From NCBI GenBank assembly GCA_945863875.1, contig CAMBBS010000016.1, positions 41,650-105,649 on the forward strand: DNA of 64,000 nucleotides, read 5' to 3'. The notes under the pieces are model-generated. The model was not told where the DNA came from. It saw only the letters and a program-made list of their open reading frames with translations, and made no database searches. Shown in pieces: positions 38,673 through 54,035 of this stretch (its first letter is position 1; each line of letters starts with the position of its first letter). This DNA is from Desulfopila aestuarii DSM 18488. Lineage in GTDB: Bacteria > Desulfobacterota > Desulfobulbia > Desulfobulbales > Desulfocapsaceae. The position numbers were made by a program, and so were the translations under genes.

Positions 38673-41585
38673 ATGGAAATAGAAGACGACGAAATATTGC
38701 AGGGATTCATCGAGGAGTCACTGGAACACCTCGCAGATATTGAAAATGACCTTTTGGCCGTTGAAGAAGGCGGGGCCAACATCGATGAAGACCTTGTCAA
38801 CAAGGTTTTTCGTGCAGCCCACTCCATAAAGGGCGGCGCTGGATTCATGGGTCTGACGACCATTCAGGATCTATCGCATGCGGCAGAGAATGTCCTTGGG
38901 ATGATTCGCAGCAAGAAGCTTATACCCACGCCGGAAATAATCAACGTTCTGCTGATCGCCGCAGATCAACTGCAGAGCTTGATTGAAGATGTGCAAAACA
39001 GCAATGCGGTGGACATTTCATCACACCTCACCCCATTGAACGCCATAGCGGACGGCACATTTTCCCAGCCGGCCGACGAGAAGCAGTCGAGACCACAAAG
39101 AGAGCCCGCGGCAGTGGCGGAAGCCCCTGCAAAAGTGCCCGCTGAGAAAAAGACCGCACCGAAACCGCTACTCACCCTTGATGAAGAAGACGAGACTTTT
39201 ATCGAAGAAGTAGAAGACAGCTTGCTGCCGGACGATGAATTCGAAGCGGAAACAGAGGCGCAGGCGATGGGGGATCAATCTTTTTCCGCCATCGAGCCGG
39301 CCGCGTTAAACAATCTGCCGTCAGGCAAATCGCCCCAGGCGCCACCGGCAAAAGCGGAGGCATCGCTCCGCGTCCATGTCAGCCTGCTCGACTCTTTGAT
39401 GAACCTGGCCGGAGAACTGGTACTCAGCAGGAATCAACTGCTGCAGACCATCGGGTCAGACGATCTGCGCAACGCAGAGGCGGTCGGTCAGCGCATCGAC
39501 CTTATCACCTCCGAGCTGCAGGAAGCGATCATGCTGACCCGTATGCAGCCGATAGGCAATGTCTTCAGTAAGTTTCCCCGGGTTGTCCGGGACCTCTCCA
39601 AAAAACTGAAGAAAAAAATTGATCTGACTATCGTCGGGAAAGATGTCGAGCTCGATAAAACCATCATTGAGGCAATAAACGATCCGTTGACGCATCTGGT
39701 GCGAAATTCCGTCGACCATGGCATTGAGATGCCTGCCGAACGAAGGAAAATCGGCAAGGCGGAAACGGGTCTTGTCGTCCTGAAGGCCTATCATGAGGCC
39801 GGACAGGTTGTCATCGAAATCAGTGATGACGGTAAAGGTCTCGACGGTGATGCACTTGCCGCGAGCGCCGTCAGCAAGGGTCTTCTCTCCAGCGAGCAGG
39901 CCCAGATCATGTCGGACAAGGAAAAGGTCAATCTTATTTTTCTGCCCGGTTTTTCCACGGCCAAGGAAGTGACCGATGTATCCGGCCGCGGCGTCGGCAT
40001 GGATGTCGTCAAAACGAATCTTGACCAGCTTGGCGGCAATGTCGATATCATTTCCGAGAAAGGTTCCGGTACGACAATTTCCATCAAACTGCCCCTGACC
40101 TTGGCGATTATCCCCTGCCAGATTATCGAAACAGCCGGGGAAAGGTATGCTATCCCCCAGGTGAACCTGGAGGAATTACTGCGTATCCCCGCCGGTCAGG
40201 TGAAAGACCGAGTCGAAAGAGTCGGCGACGCGGAGGTCGTCCGCTTGCGGGGCGTGCTGCTCCCCCTTATCCGACTGGCCGATGTCATCGGCATCAAGCG
40301 AACCTATTATGATCGCGGTACCGACGAAGTAAAACCGGACAGAAGAGAAAAGATATTTGATCGGCGGGGCAAGGACTCACCCCTCTTTAACAGTGACGAG
40401 GAGTCGAGAAATGATACACCACCGAGTCGAAACGATCGCCCCCGGTCGGTACTCGACCGCCGTTTCGCCGCCTCCAGCGCGCTGAATATCGTCGTCGTCT
40501 CCACAGGCTCGATGAAGTACGGCCTGATCGTCGATAGACTGCAGGATTCCGAAGAGATCGTCATCAAGCCACTCGGCAGGCATCTGCAGCAATGTAAAGG
40601 ATATGCCGGCGCCACCATCATGGGCGATGGGCGTATCGCGCTGATCCTCGATGTCAGCAATCTTGCCCGGATGGCCCACCTTACCTCCGTTGACGGCTCA
40701 GACCGGGCATCGGAGGTGGCCAGGGCGGCCGAGGCGGCAATCAAGGCGATAAAGGACAAACAATCTCTGCTCATCTTCAAGAATTCCGAGGTAGAACATT
40801 TTGCGGTTCCTCTCAACCAGGTCGAACGGATTGAAAAAATCAAACGGTCGGACATAGAAGAATTCGGCGGCAGGCGCGTCATGAAATACCGTGGCGGCAG
40901 TCTCAGTCTCATCCGTGTCGATGACCTGGCCATGGTGCAGCCGATTGCCGATCACGACAGTCTTCTGGTCATTGTTTTTACCATTGCCAAACGATCCGTC
41001 GGCCTGCTTGCCGTTGGGCCGATAGACGCCCTCGAGGTGAGCGCCGACATTGATGACACGACCCTGAGCCAGCCGGGAATAATGGGCTCGATCATCATCG
41101 ACAATCAAACGACAATGCTCGTCAATGTCTTTGAAATGGTCCAGACTCTATTTCCCCACTGGTTTCTCGAACAGGAAAAATTCGAGCTTGCAAATGTCGA
41201 GACAGACGTTTTACCAACCATCCTTATCGCCGAGGATTCCAAATTTTTTCGCAATCAGGTCAAAGGCTACATGACCGAAGTCGGCTATAATGTCATAGAG
41301 GCTGAGGACGGCCTCGAGGGCTGGCATAAATTGATGGAGCACGGGGATGAAATTTCCATGCTGGTCACGGATATAGAGATGCCGAACATGAACGGTTTTG
41401 AGCTCACGCAAAAAATCCGCAGTGACCGCAAGTATTCCGACCTGCCGATCATCGCCCTGACAACCCTGGCCTCGGCGGAGGATGTCGCCAGGGGGAAGGC
41501 AGTCGGAGTAAATGAGTACCACATTAAACTGGACAAGGAACGGCTCATGGTCTCCGTCCACGATTACATCAAGAGAAGACACTGA
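38673..41585 (+). CDS. cheA: Hybrid chemotaxis kinase CheA with two CheW domains and a receiver
   Basis: A 970-residue kinase, longer than ordinary CheA. In order: HPt domain with phospho-acceptor His50 (RAAHSIKGGAGF), acidic linker 130-230, dimerisation domain about 231-300, HATPase (THLVRNSVDHGIE near 341, GRGVGMDVVKTN at 438-449), and a first CheW-like domain from about 475. This is interrupted at about 547-600 by an Arg/Asp-rich insert. A second CheW-like domain lies at about 695-830 and a REC domain at 848-970 with Asp900 and Lys952. No P2 CheY-binding domain is evident. The start follows GGGAG. It heads a cheA-cheW-cheB-cheR unit and would relay receptor signals to CheY and CheB. Confidence 0.95.
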   Translation: MEIEDDEILQGFIEESLEHLADIENDLLAVEEGGANIDEDLVNKVFRAAHSIKGGAGFMGLTTIQDLSHAAENVLGMIRSKKLIPTPEIINVLLIAADQLQSLIEDVQNSNAVDISSHLTPLNAIADGTFSQPADEKQSRPQREPAAVAEAPAKVPAEKKTAPKPLLTLDEEDETFIEEVEDSLLPDDEFEAETEAQAMGDQSFSAIEPAALNNLPSGKSPQAPPAKAEASLRVHVSLLDSLMNLAGELVLSRNQLLQTIGSDDLRNAEAVGQRIDLITSELQEAIMLTRMQPIGNVFSKFPRVVRDLSKKLKKKIDLTIVGKDVELDKTIIEAINDPLTHLVRNSVDHGIEMPAERRKIGKAETGLVVLKAYHEAGQVVIEISDDGKGLDGDALAASAVSKGLLSSEQAQIMSDKEKVNLIFLPGFSTAKEVTDVSGRGVGMDVVKTNLDQLGGNVDIISEKGSGTTISIKLPLTLAIIPCQIIETAGERYAIPQVNLEELLRIPAGQVKDRVERVGDAEVVRLRGVLLPLIRLADVIGIKRTYYDRGTDEVKPDRREKIFDRRGKDSPLFNSDEESRNDTPPSRNDRPRSVLDRRFAASSALNIVVVSTGSMKYGLIVDRLQDSEEIVIKPLGRHLQQCKGYAGATIMGDGRIALILDVSNLARMAHLTSVDGSDRASEVARAAEAAIKAIKDKQSLLIFKNSEVEHFAVPLNQVERIEKIKRSDIEEFGGRRVMKYRGGSLSLIRVDDLAMVQPIADHDSLLVIVFTIAKRSVGLLAVGPIDALEVSADIDDTTLSQPGIMGSIIIDNQTTMLVNVFEMVQTLFPHWFLEQEKFELANVETDVLPTILIAEDSKFFRNQVKGYMTEVGYNVIEAEDGLEGWHKLMEHGDEISMLVTDIEMPNMNGFELTQKIRSDRKYSDLPIIALTTLASAEDVARGKAVGVNEYHIKLDKERLMVSVHDYIKRRH

Positions 41586-45773: not shown

Positions 45774-47237
45774 ATGGTATCTCCCCCGACAATACTTTTT
45801 GCAGACAGGCAGGCAGATGGACTCTCCGCCGTGGCAGATACGCTCGATTTACAGTTCACCTGCACCATTGATCATGTGTTCACCGAGCAGGATCTTGACG
45901 CGGCATTACGGACACATTCGATCACCATCCTGGTCATTGATCTCTACTTTGCCGGCAACGACAATGAATTATCACTTATCACCGCACTGAAGAAAAGCCA
46001 TCCGGACACGCTTATAGTTCCTATCATTCCTGCCGGATGTCCACACTTCATCAGACAGGTGCTGGACCTCGATCTCTTCCACTTCATTCATCGGCCGATC
46101 GACCCGGTGGAAACGACTTTGGCGTTAAGAAGAGCATACGAGGCGCTGCCATCCGCCGGGAAGCTACAAAAACAACCGGACAAGCCGAAACATGTACCGT
46201 TTCACGGAATGATCGGGGCCAGCCGGCCGATGCGCCAGCTCTTTGACCTGATTACCCGGGTGGCCGAAGATGATATTTCCACCGTTCTCATCAGGGGGGA
46301 ATCAGGAACCGGCAAAGAGATGGTTGCAAAGGCCATCCATGCAGAGAGTAAAAGACGCGGCAAAAATTTTGTGCCGGTAAACTGTGCGGCGATACCCGAT
46401 GACCTTCTCGAGAGCGAGCTCTTCGGCTACACGAAAGGTGCTTTTACCGGGGCAACAGCCAACAAACCCGGCAGAATCCAGTATGCCGACCAGGGAACAC
46501 TCTTTCTCGATGAAATCGGCGACATGAAATCAGCCCTGCAGGCCAAACTGCTGCGGGTCATCCAGGAAAAAGAATTTGAGCCGGTTGGTGCTTTTCAAGC
46601 CGTTCCGGTCAATACCCGTATTCTCGCGGCGACCCATTGCGACCTCGAGAAAATGGTCAGTGAAGGGCGGTTCAGGGAGGACCTCTACTATCGTCTCAGT
46701 GTCGTTCCTCTGCATATTCCCACACTGAGAGAAAGACCCGAAGACATTCCCCTTCTGATCGATGCTTTTTTTGAAAAATTCGCCGAAAACCGCGGTAGAG
46801 AACGGTTCACTTTTGCACCCCGGGCGCTGGCGGCAATTCTTCATTACCAATGGCGCGGCAATGTGCGGGAGCTCGAGAACCTCATCCAGCATATGACCAT
46901 TCTCTACAGCGGCAGGCAGGTCGAGTTGAAAGATCTCCCGGAAAAATTCCATGGTGTCGTCATTCCGGAGATGGAGGACGTCACTCTCGAGAATGGCGCC
47001 ATGGAGCAAGCCACAGGCCAAGCCGGCCAGCAGGCGGCTGTACAGCATGTTGCCTGGGAAAACGGCACGATTGATTTCAACGGGCTGATCAATGATTTTG
47101 AGACCCAGCTCATTGTCCAGGCCCTGAAATTCACCGATGGCAACAAGAAAGAGGCCGCCCGTTTATTAAATCTCAAGCGAACAACCCTGCTGGAGAAGAT
47201 AAAGAAAAAAGATATCGCCGGCGACTGGGACAAATAA
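45774..47237 (+). CDS. Sigma54-dependent activator with degenerate receiver (FleQ/FlrC-like)
   Basis: A 487-residue bacterial enhancer-binding protein. The first 120 residues have receiver topology; Asp56 (LVIDLYF) is kept, but the acidic pocket reads ADRQAD and the conserved Lys is Arg107 (IHRPID). Control by phosphorylation is therefore doubtful. The AAA+ domain is complete: Walker A GESGTGK at 175-181, sigma54-contacting GAFTGA at 222-227, and LFLDEIGDM as Walker B. A FIS-type HTH ends the protein (KKEAARLLNLKRTTLLEKIK). Its place in the flagellar/chemotaxis region suggests it drives flagellar promoters. No sigma54 promoter was identified by eye. Start ATG 45774 has no clear ribosome site. 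Confidence 0.9.
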   Translation: MVSPPTILFADRQADGLSAVADTLDLQFTCTIDHVFTEQDLDAALRTHSITILVIDLYFAGNDNELSLITALKKSHPDTLIVPIIPAGCPHFIRQVLDLDLFHFIHRPIDPVETTLALRRAYEALPSAGKLQKQPDKPKHVPFHGMIGASRPMRQLFDLITRVAEDDISTVLIRGESGTGKEMVAKAIHAESKRRGKNFVPVNCAAIPDDLLESELFGYTKGAFTGATANKPGRIQYADQGTLFLDEIGDMKSALQAKLLRVIQEKEFEPVGAFQAVPVNTRILAATHCDLEKMVSEGRFREDLYYRLSVVPLHIPTLRERPEDIPLLIDAFFEKFAENRGRERFTFAPRALAAILHYQWRGNVRELENLIQHMTILYSGRQVELKDLPEKFHGVVIPEMEDVTLENGAMEQATGQAGQQAAVQHVAWENGTIDFNGLINDFETQLIVQALKFTDGNKKEAARLLNLKRTTLLEKIKKKDIAGDWDK

Positions 47238-47267: not shown

Positions 47268-49790
47268 TCAGGCGGCAAGTTCAAGCAAATTATTGTTCAG
47301 ATTTTCTGTAATATCCCCTTCCGAGGCAGGTGTCAGCAATATATCCCGGACACCATATTTAACGGCCTTGATCACCTTCGTTCTCGTCCAGCCCGGTCCG
47401 GCGGCTATCAGCGGTACGGAACATGCCGAACTGACTTTTATCGCCACCCCAAAGGCCTGCTCATTGACATCGCGCATTACCAGATAGATTGCTCTCAGGT
47501 TACCGGGAATGTAGTTGTGCAGATTGTCCTTAAAAGAGAGCGTCTTGACGAAATATCCGGCATTGCCGAGAACCGCTGCAATCTTTGCCACTTCTGGTTC
47601 ATCGTCGCCGACCACAAGAATATCTAACGATTTCCGATCATTTTTTTCAATTTTCTGCGCGGACCGGCTGTCGGTCTGTTCTTCATCCGAGCCTGCCTGG
47701 CCAATGGCGGCTGTGTCTTCTTTGTCGCCGACAGGAACACTGCCCGGTCTCAGCCCGCCGAGCTGCAGCAGCTCAGCGGGGAAAAGGAGGTTTACCTTGC
47801 CAAGTGCGGCACCGCCAAGGGTCAGGTCCATCCGGCTCAGGTAGTAGTCCTGATCCGGTATCGGTTTATCGGCAGCAATGTCGACTTTCATGGGGGCGAC
47901 CTGCTGCAGGCCGGTTTTTACGAAACGAATGCGTTTGGCGTACTGCTCTTCAAAAACCGCCGTATACACCCCGGCAATGATGTTGGCGATTTCGCCGTAG
48001 GCATCCTGCGTGTCCGCACTGAACTCTTCCTCACCAACCACCGATTCAAGTTCGCCGGCAGGAAGCATAATGAGTGTGCCACCGATTCGGATGGCATCGC
48101 GCAGACCAACCGACAGATAGCTTGTTCCTTCAAGCTCACCAACCACATCCAGGTCGGCAATGATCTGCCTGCCGGACACCTCATCAAAAAAGAACTGTTC
48201 TTTACTGACAAGGATGTTTTCAAGATGGGTCAATGTAACGTCGGTGCCGAGAAGAGCGCTTACCTCCTCGGCCATTTTGTCCTTACAGGAAGAGAGGATC
48301 TTATCTACCCGTATTTTATGCTTCTTGACATCCGGTTGCGCCACCTTGACCGAAGCGTCCTTCCCCGATCCGCCGGCAGCTGCACCTTCTAAGTTTTGCT
48401 CTTTTTCGGGTGGGGCCTGGCTCCCTGCAGCAGAGCCACTTTCGATTGATTTGGCGGCGGGTGTTTCCTCTTCTGTTTTTTCCAGCAGTGCCTCAAGGCG
48501 GAGCATTTCTGCCGGAAAAAGCATATGCATCTTGCCAAGCGGCTTTCCGGATACCGCCATGGCCATACTGCTCGTGTAATATTTTTTATCCGGCAGAGGT
48601 TCGTCGGAGGCGGTATCGACCTTGGCCGGAACCACTTCGCTGAGTCCCTTGCGGATGAATCTGAGTTTCTGGTTGTACTGTTCTTCAAAAACGGCAGTAT
48701 ACACACCGGATATAATGTTGGCTATTTCTCCGTAGGCATCGCGGGCATCTTCACTAAAATCTTCTTCCTTGATGACATTTTCCAGTTCGGCCGGGGGAAG
48801 CATGATGAGTATGCCGCCAAGGTGGATGGCGTCTTTCATACTGACCGCCAGATAACTTTTCCCCTGCACCTCGCCCGCCACTTCCAGCTCGGCCAGGACC
48901 TGACGTCCGGCAACATGGTCGAGAAAAAATTCTTCCTTGCCAAGGAATTTATTTTCCGGAGCACTCAGGGTGATGTCTGCGCCGATGAGTGCGGATACCT
49001 CGGCGCCTATCTTCTTCTGACATTCAACGAGAAGACTATTGACCTTTTTCCTCTGTTTCTCGACATCAAACCGTGGCCCGACGGGTGCTTTGCCTTGTGG
49101 TTCAGTACCTTGTTTTTCCTCTGATTGCGACCGGAAGCCATCTGGCTCTTTCAAACCGCTGTCTTTGGCAACAGCCTCGGGTTCACCGGGGGCGACGTCC
49201 GCCTCGTCCGGCTTGCCTTCTTCCTGCAGACCGAAAATGGCGGCCGGCATGAGCATGACCATGTCGCCCATCTGCTTTCCATCAAGAACCATGGAACTGG
49301 AGACCTGGTAATATGTCTGGTTTTCTACCGGGCTGTCCCCGGCAATATCAACCTTGGACGGGAGGAGGAGTTCCTGTTCCTTGCGGACAAAGCGACAGGA
49401 TTTCGGATACATCTCCTCAAAATCCTTGGTGAAGGAACCAGCAATGATATTGGCTATCTCACCATAAGAGTCTTCAACCTCCTCACTGTATTCCTCTCGG
49501 CCGATCACCTCTTCCAGTTCGCCGGCGGGCAACATGATAAGCGTACCGCCGAGACGAATAGCATCCTTGACACCCAGCAGCAGACAGCCTTTTCCGGTTA
49601 TTTCGCCGGTTATATCCATCAGGGCACAGATCTGTTTTCCCTGCCGGCCTTCAAAGGCGGCTTCTTTCGTTACTACTTTATTGTCTCCACCAATCAGCTT
49701 GAAATCAGCGCCGAGCAGGGCGCCGACCTCGTCCTGTATTCTCGCCTCAACAGCCTTGATTATCTTGTCTATGCGTTTTTGCTGATTCAT
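47268..49790 (-). CDS. 840-residue protein with three CheC/CheX-like units and a degenerate receiver
   Basis: Three tandem repeats of about 190 residues (roughly 1-188, 245-432 and 490-677) are separated by acidic linkers. Each has the D-x3-E-x2-N motif of CheC/CheX/FliY phosphatases at almost constant spacing: DSYGEIAN 107-114, DAYGEIAN 351-358, DAYGEIAN 596-603. Each also has an LGG-LIMLP turn before it (for example 80-88). The Pro that usually follows about 22 residues later is not at that place in any copy. Residues 720-840 look like a receiver: LDILVVGDDEPEV opens it and LVMRDVNE gives the Asp position, but the conserved Lys is missing. No signal peptide. The start has no clear ribosome site. 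Its neighbours are cheX, cheX and cheY, so a role in removing phosphate from CheY or in sensing is likely, not shown. Confidence 0.8.
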   Translation of the reverse strand: MNQQKRIDKIIKAVEARIQDEVGALLGADFKLIGGDNKVVTKEAAFEGRQGKQICALMDITGEITGKGCLLLGVKDAIRLGGTLIMLPAGELEEVIGREEYSEEVEDSYGEIANIIAGSFTKDFEEMYPKSCRFVRKEQELLLPSKVDIAGDSPVENQTYYQVSSSMVLDGKQMGDMVMLMPAAIFGLQEEGKPDEADVAPGEPEAVAKDSGLKEPDGFRSQSEEKQGTEPQGKAPVGPRFDVEKQRKKVNSLLVECQKKIGAEVSALIGADITLSAPENKFLGKEEFFLDHVAGRQVLAELEVAGEVQGKSYLAVSMKDAIHLGGILIMLPPAELENVIKEEDFSEDARDAYGEIANIISGVYTAVFEEQYNQKLRFIRKGLSEVVPAKVDTASDEPLPDKKYYTSSMAMAVSGKPLGKMHMLFPAEMLRLEALLEKTEEETPAAKSIESGSAAGSQAPPEKEQNLEGAAAGGSGKDASVKVAQPDVKKHKIRVDKILSSCKDKMAEEVSALLGTDVTLTHLENILVSKEQFFFDEVSGRQIIADLDVVGELEGTSYLSVGLRDAIRIGGTLIMLPAGELESVVGEEEFSADTQDAYGEIANIIAGVYTAVFEEQYAKRIRFVKTGLQQVAPMKVDIAADKPIPDQDYYLSRMDLTLGGAALGKVNLLFPAELLQLGGLRPGSVPVGDKEDTAAIGQAGSDEEQTDSRSAQKIEKNDRKSLDILVVGDDEPEVAKIAAVLGNAGYFVKTLSFKDNLHNYIPGNLRAIYLVMRDVNEQAFGVAIKVSSACSVPLIAAGPGWTRTKVIKAVKYGVRDILLTPASEGDITENLNNNLLELAA

Positions 49791-49898: not shown

Positions 49899-50372
49899 TT
49901 ATGCGTTAACAACATACATGAGTTCCACCCAAAAGATCGCATCGGCCATTTTCAAGGGAACAATTATTCTCTTTGCATCGGCAATGCCACTGACATAGAA
50001 TGATTCCCCGACAATAGATGTCGGGATGGCCAGTTCAACGTTGATACCTATTTTCGCATAGGAAACCTTCAAGTTTCCAGCGACCATATTGGCAATTTCT
50101 CCAATGGCATCCTTCACATCATCGTTGAGTTCATCGACATCCATGCCGAGAAACGCGCCGGTAATCGCTTTAGCCACCGACGCAGGACAGTGAATGGCCA
50201 GCAAGCCGCGGATTCCACCGCCAAGCCCAATCATGCTCGTCAGATTGGATTGAATGGCGCATTTTTTATTCTCGATAACCGCTTCACTTTCAAGATCGAC
50301 CATCAGCATGGTGGAAAACACGTCCTGCGTCCCGCTGATAATTTCATTTCCTATACTGAACATCTCGGCCAT
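49899..50372 (-). CDS. cheX: CheX-like phosphatase, second copy
   Basis: A 157-residue single-domain CheX-like protein. The motif DAIGEIANMVAGNLK gives D-x3-E-x2-N and P follows 22 residues after the Asn (NVELAIP), as in active CheX. The rest (IISGTQDVFSTMLMVDL, LTSMIGLGGGIRGLLAIHCP, GAFLGMDVDELN) matches the CheX fold. It would dephosphorylate CheY. The start follows AAGGATC. It is between the first cheX and the triple-unit gene, all minus strand. Confidence 0.88.
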   Translation of the reverse strand: MAEMFSIGNEIISGTQDVFSTMLMVDLESEAVIENKKCAIQSNLTSMIGLGGGIRGLLAIHCPASVAKAITGAFLGMDVDELNDDVKDAIGEIANMVAGNLKVSYAKIGINVELAIPTSIVGESFYVSGIADAKRIIVPLKMADAIFWVELMYVVNA

Positions 50373-50456: not shown

Positions 50457-50912
50457 TTATTTTTCCAGTTGCAGGTCGATGGCAAATTCTCCGGCAGCAC
50501 AGTGGAAAGGAATAATAATTCTTTCAGCCTCTTTGGTCGGTTGGAAATCATAGTTCTGTCCGGTAATCGTTGAGGGCAGGGAGAGACTTATGTCTCTGCC
50601 GTTTTCCGAGAGAATCGACTTCACATTGCCACCGAGCATATTGGCCAGCTCCCCGACAGCATCCTCGACATCTTCATTCATTTCAATGACATCCATTCCG
50701 AGAAAGGCACTGGTGATGGCCATGGCGACCTTGTTGGGTATATGTATTGCCAGGACCCCTTTATGGGTGCCTGCCAGTCCGATAACGCCCGAGATACTCT
50801 CCTTCAAGGCCATGCTTTTGGTCGTCTGTTCACCATGTACAGCGATTTCCATCATCATCATTGAGGAAAATATTTCTTTCGCGGACTCGATGATTTTTTC
50901 ACTTAGTTCCAC
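50457..50912 (-). CDS. cheX: CheX-like phosphatase, first copy
   Basis: A 151-residue CheX-like protein. DAVGELANMLGGNVK gives the D-x3-E-x2-N motif and the Pro follows 22 residues after the Asn (ISLSLP). The GVIGLAGTHKGVLAIHIP and TSAFLGMDVIEMN segments parallel the second copy. The start is set at GTG 50912, six bases after AAGGAG; the TTG two codons earlier sits directly against that site. It begins 58 bases after the cheY stop. Confidence 0.88.
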   Translation of the reverse strand: MELSEKIIESAKEIFSSMMMMEIAVHGEQTTKSMALKESISGVIGLAGTHKGVLAIHIPNKVAMAITSAFLGMDVIEMNEDVEDAVGELANMLGGNVKSILSENGRDISLSLPSTITGQNYDFQPTKEAERIIIPFHCAAGEFAIDLQLEK

Positions 50913-50970
50913 ACCCAACTCCTTTATATCCCATGTGATTTACAGTTTTCTTACAGTGACTTACAGTGAC

Positions 50971-51342
50971 TTACAGTAAAGGCCCAAGCACCTCATTGAC
51001 CTTATCCGGGGTAAAGGGCTTCTTGATGGCGCCGACGGCGCCAAGGGATTTCGCCTCGCCGATAATATCGTCACCGGTTTCAGTGGAAATCATCAACACC
51101 GGAATGTTTTTTATGCCGGGACGGTTCGCCTTTTCTCTGAGAAAGGCAATACCGTCCATATTGGGCATGTTTATATCACTCAACACAATATCAACATGTT
51201 GATTTTCAAGGACATCAAGCGCTTCCAGACCATCAGCCGCCTCAAAAATGTTATCGAAGTCAATACCGGCCTGCCGAAGTGACCGGCCGATAATTTTTCT
51301 CATTGTGCTTGAATCATCGACTAACAGTACGTTCTTTCCCAT
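50971..51342 (-). CDS. cheY: Chemotaxis response regulator CheY
   Basis: A 123-residue single-domain receiver. Acidic pocket VDDSSTMRK, phospho-acceptor in VLSDINMPNMDG, Thr/Ser in VLMISTE and Lys in AIKKPFTPDK are all intact. It would carry the signal from CheA to the flagellar motor. ATG 51342 follows ACAGGAGAAACAC, so the longer open frame upstream is not used. It heads the minus-strand cheY-cheX-cheX-triple-CheC unit, divergent from the flagellar genes. Confidence 0.93.
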   Translation of the reverse strand: MGKNVLLVDDSSTMRKIIGRSLRQAGIDFDNIFEAADGLEALDVLENQHVDIVLSDINMPNMDGIAFLREKANRPGIKNIPVLMISTETGDDIIGEAKSLGAVGAIKKPFTPDKVNEVLGPLL

Positions 51343-51626
51343 GTGTTTCTCCTGTATTAATATGATGCATAGATCATTCCCAAAAATTGTTCTCATCATA
51401 GTATCAAGAAGTCATTCAAAAAATCAAATAACTAATGGAGAAAAGAAGGCTCTCGGTGTTTTTTTGTTATCAATTGCTTTCGTGTGCAATCACCCGTGTG
51501 TCATTATTTTGTCACCTGGCGGCGTTTTCCATCAACAAACTGTCACGCGTTGGCGCCCGGCCAGAACAACCGGAGAATTGGGACAAAAAAAAGATGCATG
51601 GAATATTTTTTGCATATAGTTTTACC

Positions 51627-54035
51627 ATGAAACGATTACTTGCATGCATACTCCTCTGGCTCACCGTTCTCCACTGTACAGCTGACGCGTCCGAGCTCAT
51701 CAAGGTGTCAAGAATAGACAGAAAGGATATCGTTCAGTTCTATTTCACCTTTGATGTCCCCCCCGAGTTCAGCAGTATCAGAAGCGAGAGACGTATCGAT
51801 CTTGAGTTTTTCAAAACCACCAGCGCGCCTTCCGTGTCCCTGGGCAGCCCCGACAAGGACATTGTCAAAATATTGCCACGCCCGGCAGAAGACAAATTTA
51901 TTTTATCTCTTTTCTTTCGATATCGACCACAGGACCATAAACTGACGAGAAGCAGCGACGGCAAATTGGTCTTTGAGGTAGTGCTTGGCAATGAATACAG
52001 TAATTCCTATCAAGACCTGGCCGACAGGCTCAAAGGGCTGACGGTTCTAGAATCAGCCCCGCTCGATGCCTTAAACCCTTATCTGCAATCGCCTTATGCC
52101 AAAGACTGGCCGTCGTTTTTTTCTCGATACGAATCACCGGTTGCAATAGACATCCCCGTCAAATTCAGTTATCCGCCGTTTCCGCTTATCAGCTTGCTCC
52201 CCCCGGGAGGAGAGACAAACCTTCAGCTCCTCACTGCTGAAATGCTTGATTTGGCCAGGCTGAATCTTTGGGATGATCTGGCCAAGAAATTACTGGAATC
52301 GGTACAAAACAGTCAGGATGTCGAGGCAAAAAAACTCCTCGCTCTGACCTATGGCGAAGTATTGAGCAGAACCGGAAATTTTGCCGATGCATTCAGACAA
52401 CTCTACCTGCTGAAAGAGCAATACGGCAACGAGCTCCTCGGCACCTATGCCAAATATCTGTTAATTCATCTGGGGTCTGTGCACGAAGATCCCTATTTAG
52501 CCGAAAGCAACTACACATTACTGGAACCATCGATCAGCAATACCCTTCCCCTGGCGCCATACTTTCTCCTGTCCCAGATCGAGACAGCCCTGGCCACCGC
52601 CAATTATGCACGGCTCAACCATCTGTTACTGAGAGAGGATGTCGCCTTGCCACAACAGGTTGCGGAAATAGTCCAAATTCGGCAGGCCGATTACTGGTAT
52701 GCCATTCATCAGCCGATAAAAGCCAAAGCGGCATATCAGCTCCAGGCGGCTTCCCAGATGCTGCAGACCATGCCCTATTCGCTCGCCGCCTCCTGTCATA
52801 TTTATTATGACCTGCAGAAATTCGCCGAGGCCGCCACCTGCTACAACACCCTGTCGACATTGGTCTCCGACGAGACCCTGCTTGGTCTCATCGACTACAG
52901 AAAAAACATGTCGAAGCTTCACACCCCTGGCCAGACTGCACTCATTGACGAATTTTCCCGCATTGAAAAGAACTTTCCCGGCACGGAACCAGCATATCGG
53001 GCAGCATTAAAGAAAAACGACCTGCTCTTTCTGCAGGACAGGACCTGGGGGCTGGAGGCAACAGCACATTACGCCGGCATAGCGCAAAAGGCCAATTCCC
53101 GTCCCCTTCGTGAAGAAGCCTTGTTCAAACAGGCCCTGGTACATGCGCTCCTTGATGACAAGACCACGTCTGTTCAGCTGCTCCAGCTATTTCTGCGTGA
53201 ATTTCTGACGGGGGATGTCAGAATATCGGCGCAGGCCCTGCTCATCGACCTGCTGCCGGGCGAAATAAAACGGCTGGTTGACAACCAGGAATATATCCAG
53301 GCACTTGTTCTGGCCAAAAAAAACAAGGATCTTTTCCAGAAAAAATGGATCGACAATACGTTTCTCGTCGATATTGCCAAGGCCTATAACCGCATAGGCA
53401 TTTATGATGAAGCCCAGAAACTGTATCTCTATCTCATCGAAATAATGCCCGTCGACCAGAGAGAAGATCTTTTTTTACCGATGATTCAGGCAACTTTTGA
53501 TCACGGCAACTATTCTTTAGTCGACGACTACGCGGCCCAGTACAGCTACACCTATCCGGCTGGCCGGCACACCGACCAAGTGCTTTTCTTCCGCCTGCAG
53601 TCTTTGGTCGCCGATGAACGGCTGAGCGATGCCCTGCGAATTTTACCCGAGCCCCTTCCGGAAAACATTGCCATCTATGAACTGGCGGCCGCACTGTTTT
53701 TCAGAACGGACGACTACGAAAAATGCCTTGATGTCGCAAAAAGACTCGCTCGCCTAAAAAACCCCCTCTCGCATACAGAACAGTATATGCTCGCCGAAAG
53801 CCTCTGCCGGACAGGTTTATTTGCCGAGGCGGAACAGGCCTTTATGGCCATCGGCAAAGAAAGTGGCTTTTACCAGCAGAGCCTGTACCGGCTGGCCGAA
53901 CTTGCCCGCCGGGATAAAAACGAGAAAAAAGCGCTAAGCCTCTTTGAGAAACTTGTCGAAACAGAAGAAAACAGCCTGTGGAAACAATATGCGGAACGAG
54001 AATTGCAGCTCGCCTTGCAGGCGGCCCGCCTGTAA
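51627..54035 (+). CDS. Periplasmic TPR-like repeat protein preceding flgB
   Basis: About 802 residues with a Sec signal peptide (MKRLLACILLWLTVLHCTADA). The N-terminal 150 residues are beta-rich (VSRIDRKDIVQFYFTFDVPP). The remainder is a long all-helical array with tetratricopeptide-like repeats: LTYGEVLSRTGNFADAFRQL, AKAYNRIGIYDEAQKLYLYL and YMLAESLCRTGLFAEAEQAF. No lipobox (VLHC). The frame is open to 51435; ATG 51594 is an alternative start. First gene of the plus-strand flagellar cluster and 53 bases before flgB, so it may scaffold or assemble the basal body or stator. I do not recognise a named family. Confidence 0.75.
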   Translation: MKRLLACILLWLTVLHCTADASELIKVSRIDRKDIVQFYFTFDVPPEFSSIRSERRIDLEFFKTTSAPSVSLGSPDKDIVKILPRPAEDKFILSLFFRYRPQDHKLTRSSDGKLVFEVVLGNEYSNSYQDLADRLKGLTVLESAPLDALNPYLQSPYAKDWPSFFSRYESPVAIDIPVKFSYPPFPLISLLPPGGETNLQLLTAEMLDLARLNLWDDLAKKLLESVQNSQDVEAKKLLALTYGEVLSRTGNFADAFRQLYLLKEQYGNELLGTYAKYLLIHLGSVHEDPYLAESNYTLLEPSISNTLPLAPYFLLSQIETALATANYARLNHLLLREDVALPQQVAEIVQIRQADYWYAIHQPIKAKAAYQLQAASQMLQTMPYSLAASCHIYYDLQKFAEAATCYNTLSTLVSDETLLGLIDYRKNMSKLHTPGQTALIDEFSRIEKNFPGTEPAYRAALKKNDLLFLQDRTWGLEATAHYAGIAQKANSRPLREEALFKQALVHALLDDKTTSVQLLQLFLREFLTGDVRISAQALLIDLLPGEIKRLVDNQEYIQALVLAKKNKDLFQKKWIDNTFLVDIAKAYNRIGIYDEAQKLYLYLIEIMPVDQREDLFLPMIQATFDHGNYSLVDDYAAQYSYTYPAGRHTDQVLFFRLQSLVADERLSDALRILPEPLPENIAIYELAAALFFRTDDYEKCLDVAKRLARLKNPLSHTEQYMLAESLCRTGLFAEAEQAFMAIGKESGFYQQSLYRLAELARRDKNEKKALSLFEKLVETEENSLWKQYAERELQLALQAARL

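Follow-up and report, generated by a model that had tools for sequence, protein, structure and literature searches.

What is the function of a protein in which three copies of a chemotaxis phosphatase motif precede a receiver-like domain whose phosphorylation site is altered? The question is raised by an open reading frame (ORF) of Desulfopila aestuarii DSM 18488 that lies within a stretch of 64,000 nucleotides (GCA_945863875.1, contig CAMBBS010000016.1, positions 41,650 to 105,649), here called the window, and that corresponds exactly to window positions 47268-49790 on the minus strand. The encoded protein of 840 amino acids (aa), here named CXPR, contains three CheX/FliY-like units of ~190 residues each, followed by the receiver-like domain at its C terminus. 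Judging from sequence comparisons and structure models, we hold, with rather more confidence than doubt, that CXPR is a three-headed FliY/CheX-type phosphatase that would act on the CheY encoded in the same gene cluster and would use its pseudo-receiver as a dock.

Layout and fold of CXPR

The sequence-only reading of this stretch had placed three copies of the motif D-x3-E-x2-N, spaced 244 and 245 residues apart, inside repeats of about 190 residues. The ORF and a motif scan bear this out and add the strand: the motifs start at residues 107, 351 and 596, CXPR contains no further copies, and all three also fit the stricter pattern D-x2-G-E-I-A-N. The units align with each other over 188-190 residues at pairwise identities of 44, 46 and 55% (E values of 6e-57 to 6e-85). 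Chance occurrence of the motifs was rejected, as three or more loose motifs arose in only 12 of 20,000 shuffles of the CXPR sequence (0.06%). The gene comprises the following features (pLDDT, predicted local distance difference test; pTM, predicted template modeling score).

47268..49790, minus strand: CXPR gene, three units and a pseudo-receiver (ORF, Pfam, structure model)
49221..49790, minus strand: unit 1, residues 1-190 (unit alignment, structure model)
49449..49472, minus strand: motif of unit 1, D107, E111 and N114 (motif scan, alignments)
49065..49220, minus strand: linker 1, residues 191-242, predicted mostly disordered (pLDDT <50 for residues 191-240; composition)
48492..49064, minus strand: unit 2, residues 243-433 (unit alignment, structure model)
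48717..48740, minus strand: motif of unit 2, D351, E355 and N358 (motif scan, alignments)
48330..48491, minus strand: linker 2, residues 434-487, predicted mostly disordered (pLDDT <50 for residues 434-486)
47748..48329, minus strand: unit 3, residues 488-681 (unit alignment; model with pLDDT 97.2 and pTM 0.92)
47982..48005, minus strand: motif of unit 3, D596, E600 and N603 (motif scan, alignments)
47631..47747, minus strand: linker 3, residues 682-720, predicted disordered (pLDDT <50)
47271..47630, minus strand: pseudo-receiver, residues 721-840, with M772 at the phospho-Asp and T820 at the Lys position, conserved from W801-T802-R803 to G813 (alignments, model)

A model of full-length CXPR (pTM 0.32) has no fixed arrangement of the domains relative to one another, so that docking of the receiver on the units is neither supported nor excluded by it.

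Several comparisons place the units within the superfamily of CheC, CheX, FliY and FliM. The Pfam CheX profile (PF13690) matches whole CXPR with 60.7 bits (cut-off 27) in three stretches; among 51 units, the three of the window and 48 chosen from 66 located ones, it matches 50 at E values up to 0.1, although unit 3 of CXPR alone stays below the cut-off. The catalytic pair E-x2-N lies on a conserved helix in all three CXPR units, and this helix, with its Glu and Asn, aligns in register with that of CheX (hhalign probability 95.6%). In its predicted structure the unit shares the superfamily fold: the 38 best structure matches of one unit all belong to the superfamily, the nearest being the FliM middle domain and FliY, followed by CheC and then CheX. 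The proposed likeness to CheX and CheC thus holds at the level of the superfamily, but the whole unit resembles FliY and FliM more than it does CheX. NCBIfam gave nothing above its cut-offs for CXPR, a single-sequence search of the PDB with CXPR gave a weak receiver match only, and the FliMN_C (SPOA) domain had no match in CXPR at E values up to 1.

How does CXPR compare with superfamily members of known structure? With the unit as query, Foldseek ranks FliY of Thermotoga maritima (PDB 4hyn), a CheC/FliN fusion of the flagellar switch, first (E 1.6e-11); it is also the top hit of the unit's sequence profile in the PDB (E 3.8e-4), and FliY is likewise flagellar. However, 4hyn carries two E-x2-N motifs in one domain and, by its PDB name, a FliN fusion, whereas proteins of the CXPR family lack a FliN-type domain and consist of one to three units, each with a single motif, and a pseudo-receiver; the motif in the first helix of 4hyn aligns to positions of the unit profile that lack E and N. 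Identity with FliY was rejected on the missing SPOA domain and the single motif per unit. CheC (PDB 1xkr, 2f9z) has two active motifs per domain, the CXPR unit one. CheX (PDB 1squ, 1xko, 3hzh, 3hm4) has one D-x3-E-x2-N helix per domain, as do the CXPR units, but is a single domain of ~155 aa, and CXPR differs from ordinary CheX in size, fold and layout. Because CXPR is not a small single-domain protein, we do not file it as CheX; its sequence and modeled fold would place it within the CheC/CheX/FliY phosphatases without making it CheX, CheC or FliY itself. The functional unit of CheX is a homodimer, according to the available part of a paper on Desulfuromonas (PMC8235581).

Family, motif conservation and pseudo-receiver

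CXPR belongs to a conserved family. From a search over 5.8 billion proteins the 7997 best candidates were scored, at least 751 of which are homologues; the 120 homologues listed (CXPR included) have three units in 118 cases and two in 2. A scan of contigs yielded 110 relatives, from which 80 loci were kept, 79 of them distinct (L006-L084). These encode proteins with three, two or one unit and come from genera and families of the Desulfobulbales, one member of the Desulfoarculaceae, unplaced delta- and other proteobacteria, and other uncultured bacteria. Of 395 genomes sampled evenly across the phylum, 26 match the family, G189 only through the receiver part; the one-unit proteins in two families of this sample (f28 and f104) are here called the Geobacter type. 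One locus holds a family gene that is split over two frames (L017:3759-6296). Two of the 26 matching genomes, both of family f41, encode a motif-bearing stretch that resembles a unit but is linked to CBS domains in place of a receiver (L108:1471-2649 and L109:1492-2649), possibly a nucleotide-sensing phosphatase.

The claim that no protein of this layout had been described fares unevenly: literature searches found no description, yet the family comprises hundreds of database proteins, some of them labeled CheX, CheC or 'response regulator'. The layout is not mentioned in the available parts of papers on Geobacter (PMC2577667), Desulfuromonas (PMC8235581), Campylobacterota (PMC9321776), the C. 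jejuni switch (PMC6946799), CheA fusions (PMC10542144) and D. vulgaris CheA3 (PMC3944678). CheC/CheX domains of Leptospirae are fused to CheA, so that a superfamily phosphatase domain is likewise joined to another chemotaxis protein; the partner there is a kinase, however, and the passages on these fusions hold no tandem units or pseudo-receiver (PMC10542144). The chemistry and the fold are known, and the layout is new as far as the literature searches tell.

The motif is close to invariant. D, E and N are intact in 118, 117 and 118 of the 118 three-unit database proteins (units 1-3; the single deviation is a Gln in place of the Glu in unit 2 of P0024), in every unit of the 56 proteins chosen from the 120 listed for alignment, and in 118 of 118 one-unit database proteins. 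At the level of loci they are intact in 14 of 15 one-unit proteins, in 65 and 66 of 68 two-unit proteins and in 15 of 15 three-unit proteins for each unit. Other exceptions are an Asp-to-Asn exchange in unit 1 of L073 and an Asp-to-Ala exchange in L129, both with Glu and Asn kept, and the loss of Asn from both units of L081, seen again in its repeat L133. Some genomes of L006-L084 recur among loci L115-L134, and counts of motifs and receivers are therefore not counts of independent events. The possibility that only one unit works was rejected, all three being intact in the window's clade, and the idea that the units differ in activity finds little support there.

The number of heads has changed repeatedly. 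In a tree of 95 chosen units (quick searches, support from the Shimodaira-Hasegawa-like approximate likelihood ratio test (SH-aLRT) only, midpoint roots), second units of two-unit proteins surround the middle unit of the window's clade (SH-aLRT 98), and first units surround the middle units of the Desulfocapsa clade and of L019 (SH-aLRT 96). As these middle units descend from different parent units in the tree, the third head was gained at least twice, with the reservation that unit exchange within a protein could look like a recent duplication, above all in L016, and that L019 and L050 are long branches. In an independent tree of FlgB, FlgC, FliE and FliF (43 rows), built and supported in the same way, three-unit proteins occur in three places and the number of units changes at least five times.

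The C-terminal region of CXPR is predicted to fold as a receiver, and the absence of the conserved Lys reported for it is confirmed by alignment, which has Thr820 at that position, Met772 in place of the phospho-Asp and Gly728 at the first acidic position; Asp774 stands two places past the usual acceptor position. Among 336 receivers found by profile (210 from Desulfobulbales and allied bacteria, 124 of the Geobacter type and two far ones), none has Asp at the aligned acceptor position. The 210 carry Met (198), Thr (10), Leu (1) or Phe (1) there, the Geobacter type carries Ser (123) or Val (1), and the two far receivers carry Phe. The conserved Lys is present in 121 of the 124 Geobacter-type receivers and in none of the 212 others. 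On these alignments an active response regulator was rejected, and the domain is confirmed as a pseudo-receiver, that is, a receiver fold without the usual phosphorylation site. W801 is the same in 334 of the 336 and T802 and G813 in all of them, and R or K at position 803 and K or R at position 811 are equally constant. Mean entropy amounts to 0.03 bits in alpha4 (Geobacter type; 0.49 in the others), 0.35 in beta5 (0.33), 1.64 in alpha1 (2.27) and 1.12 in alpha5 (1.76); conservation within the receiver is highest on the beta4-alpha4-beta5 side. With the acceptor site lost and one side fixed, the simplest reading is that of a docking domain. Of the earlier suggestion that a pseudo-receiver tunes the units, the pseudo-receiver stands and the tuning is unproven, the conserved side fitting docking at least as well.

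The cheY-cheX cluster and loci that lack it

On the minus strand of the window the order of genes is cheY, cheX, cheX, CXPR gene. The three neighbors are as follows.

49899..50372, minus strand: CheX gene a of the cluster, 157 aa (PF13690, 83.9 bits)
50457..50918, minus strand: CheX gene b of the same cluster, 153 aa (PF13690, 90.6 bits)
50971..51399, minus strand: CheY gene of the cluster, encoding the proposed substrate, with a likely start codon at 51342 (PF00072, 90.6 bits)

A profile built from 36 CheX neighbors, the two of the window among them and 34 chosen from 66 listed stretches, retrieves CheX with a solved structure (E 4e-31). Together with the motif helix in register and the superfamily structure matches, this cluster lends support to the sequence-only assignment of CXPR to the phosphatase class, an assignment that remains one from sequence and models. 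The arrangement is conserved: cheY and one or two cheX genes lie between a gene for a large tetratricopeptide repeat (TPR)-like protein and the CXPR gene in 55 of the 59 loci in which both were recognized (three of the 55 have a single cheX and seven an additional CheA match), and the order in Geobacter-type loci is cheY, cheX, CXPR-family gene, flgB cluster in six of six.

The other four of the 59 loci (L073, L077, L080 and L081) have neither cheY nor a cheX gene between the usual neighbors, on sequence that is contiguous there. Genome-wide searches found no other CheX and no close CheY in these genomes, and found CheY and CheX in four of four control genomes, with CheY 80-89% identical to the cluster CheY; several of the cheY-less genomes are metagenome assemblies, in which genome-wide absence is weaker than local absence. 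In the flagellar tree the losses represent at least two events, with L073, L077 and L080 forming one clade beside the window's seven-member three-unit clade. These three have fewer units than their nearest kin: L073 has two, with the Asp-to-Asn exchange in unit 1, and L077 and L080 have one each, with the motif intact. L081 has two units, neither of which retains its Asn. The receiver is still present in all four. Outside this count, L129 has one unit, with its Asp-to-Ala exchange, and no cheY or cheX recognized in its 16 kb, the part of the genome that was searched, whereas in its congener L125 two units occur together with cheY and the two cheX genes; L129 is a possible third co-loss of heads and cheY/cheX.

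Does the family occur together with the flagellar switch? In a sample of the order (146 genomes), 41 of 108 genomes with FliM and none of 38 without FliM match the family (Fisher p 4e-7, uncorrected for relatedness). A few of the 41 matches are partial: that of G451 spans 61 residues (E 7.7e-4) and is probably not real, that of G503 is a receiver alone, that of G427 lies in two frames and that of G450 holds stops. In the phylum sample, FliM is present in 25 of the 26 family-matching genomes, the exception being G189. A low-scoring FliM (E above 1e-40) occurs in 40 of the 41 family-matching genomes of the order sample (G530 being a fragment) versus 3 of 67 others, two of which are split FliM matches; FliM of the CXPR lineage (e.g. 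L135:1342-2322) scores about 1e-25 to 1e-38, versus 1e-44 and better in most relatives within the order. The family as a marker of one divergent FliM lineage was nevertheless rejected beyond the order sample, for six Geobacter-type genomes score ordinarily (E 4e-47 to 2e-53) and several genomes of the phylum sample combine low FliM scores with no CXPR family. Nor is loss of cheY accompanied by loss of the CheY-binding motif of FliM, described as E-I-D-A-L in the available part of one paper (PMC6946799): each of the four cheY-less genomes retains a FliM with E-[I/L]-x2-L-L (for G395, one of two FliM matches was read). In these genomes either the switch is served by a different CheY or the motif is used by a different partner.

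One flank of the cluster consists of the TPR-like gene (51435-54035, plus strand, divergent from cheY; its large product matches TPR profiles weakly) and flgB-flgC-fliE-fliF, and a TPR-like gene likewise stands between the cheY cluster and flgB in most loci. The other flank begins with a convergent gene for an NtrC-type sigma-54 activator (45774-47237, plus strand), whose N-terminal ~130 residues are receiver-like by eye, without a Pfam receiver match. It continues with genes for a cyclic nucleotide monophosphate (cNMP) domain and a receiver, then cheR, cheB, cheW and cheA (38673-41585, plus strand), the CheA having three CheW-like stretches and its own C-terminal receiver. According to the available part of one survey, 811 of 871 genomes with a single receiver-bearing CheA are without phosphatases (PMC10542144). 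Across the family an NtrC-type gene follows the CXPR-family gene in 70 of 79 loci, with no further gene recognized in the other nine. Within the window's genome (98.5% complete) we found no CheX-domain gene besides those of the cluster, no CheZ and no CheC match beyond one inside CheX b, and found one FliM and a short FliN without a phosphatase domain, both with FliMN_C. Promoter and terminator scans were uninformative: across the whole window the sigma-54 pattern matched 26 times (34 expected) and the sigma-28 pattern had no matches, and there were 9 sigma-70-like sites (4.9 expected) and 6 terminator-like sites (5.0 expected).

A probable multi-headed phosphatase and its rivals

We consider a multi-headed phosphatase of phosphorylated CheY (CheY-P), held on a fixed dock, to be the most economical account. 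The Glu and Asn of each unit would reach into the active site of CheY-P, where the Glu would meet the active-site Lys and the Asn would place the attacking water, as shown for CheX of other species; that the receiver Lys meets the catalytic acid of a phosphatase is described in the available part of PMC3035606. The disordered linkers would let the heads act independently and would raise the local concentration of phosphatase. The pseudo-receiver, predicted not to be switched by phosphorylation, would dock by way of the conserved beta4-alpha4-beta5 side, with the flagellar switch or another fixed site of the pathway as the most likely place. That the heads are fewer or damaged where this CheY is gone, and elsewhere intact and multiplied, supports phosphatase heads acting on it, and the survival of the receiver after the loss of cheY supports a second, anchoring role.

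Several points weigh against this account. Phosphatase activity of CXPR is a prediction, as is docking at the switch. Two ordinary cheX genes adjoin the CXPR gene, so that a need for phosphatase alone would not explain it, and the genome holds at least 150 receiver domains (150 of 202 candidates scored), which makes other substrates possible. Unit 3 by itself scores 21.4 bits with Pfam CheX, versus the cut-off of 27, and the fold closest to the unit, the FliM middle domain, is a structural relative. Glu and Asn are kept in every remaining unit of L073, L077 and L080, so that decay in the cheY-less loci is mostly one of unit number, and retention of the gene in all four of these loci, one with both Asn lost, implies that at least part of its role is independent of this CheY. 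As for an inactive receiver, its positions were assigned by sequence alignment alone, and an acidic residue stands two places after the acceptor in 171 of the 210 Desulfobulbales and allied receivers (Asp or Glu) and in 118 of the 124 Geobacter-type ones (Asp).

The likeness of the units to the FliM middle domain and FliY also suits a protein that would mainly bind CheY-P or switch proteins at the motor as a scaffold, with avidity from three copies and minor catalysis. The position of the gene beside flgB-fliF, its occurrence in the order sample only together with FliM and its persistence where cheY is gone would all agree with such a role. We nevertheless think it unlikely, since Glu and Asn are near-invariant in every unit and not obviously needed for pure binding, since the genome has a separate FliM and FliN, and since CXPR has no detected SPOA (FliN-type) domain. 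The presence of a receiver fold and receiver-binding domains in one chain raises a different possibility, namely that the pseudo-receiver, as a CheY mimic, occupies the units of its own chain until it is displaced by CheY-P or a partner. The conserved beta4-alpha4-beta5 side would fit such autoregulation, most of all in the Geobacter type, which retains the Lys; the Lys that meets the catalytic acid is absent, however, from all 210 receivers of Desulfobulbales and allied bacteria and from the two far ones, and the pseudo-receiver outlives units with an intact Asn (L081). The unfixed arrangement in the full-length model weighs neither way, and overall we judge autoregulation quite unlikely. A main role outside CheY dephosphorylation, such as flagellar assembly or feedback to the convergent sigma-54 activator gene, would accommodate the NtrC-type neighbor and the four loci that keep the gene without cheY and cheX, but seems very unlikely, as convergent neighbors can persist by inertia and the loss or damage of units along with cheY and cheX ties the units to the CheY pathway.

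Under the multi-headed phosphatase account it is possible, and we propose it tentatively, that these proteins form a separate class of modular chemotaxis phosphatases, in which an ancestral unphosphorylatable receiver would serve as a motor-side anchor, gain or loss of FliY-fold heads would set the speed at which the swimming signal is erased, head number would act as an evolvable gain control and the anchor could outlive the CheY it served. Phosphatases of CheY-P set how fast a swimming bacterium forgets a stimulus, and the natural variation in head number makes the valency and placement of a phosphatase testable. The CXPR family also illustrates strong selection on a receiver domain that is apparently not phosphorylated. 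Finally, the analysis suggests a likely function for hundreds of proteins now labeled 'hypothetical', 'CheX', 'CheC' or 'response regulator' in sulphate reducers and relatives of Geobacter.
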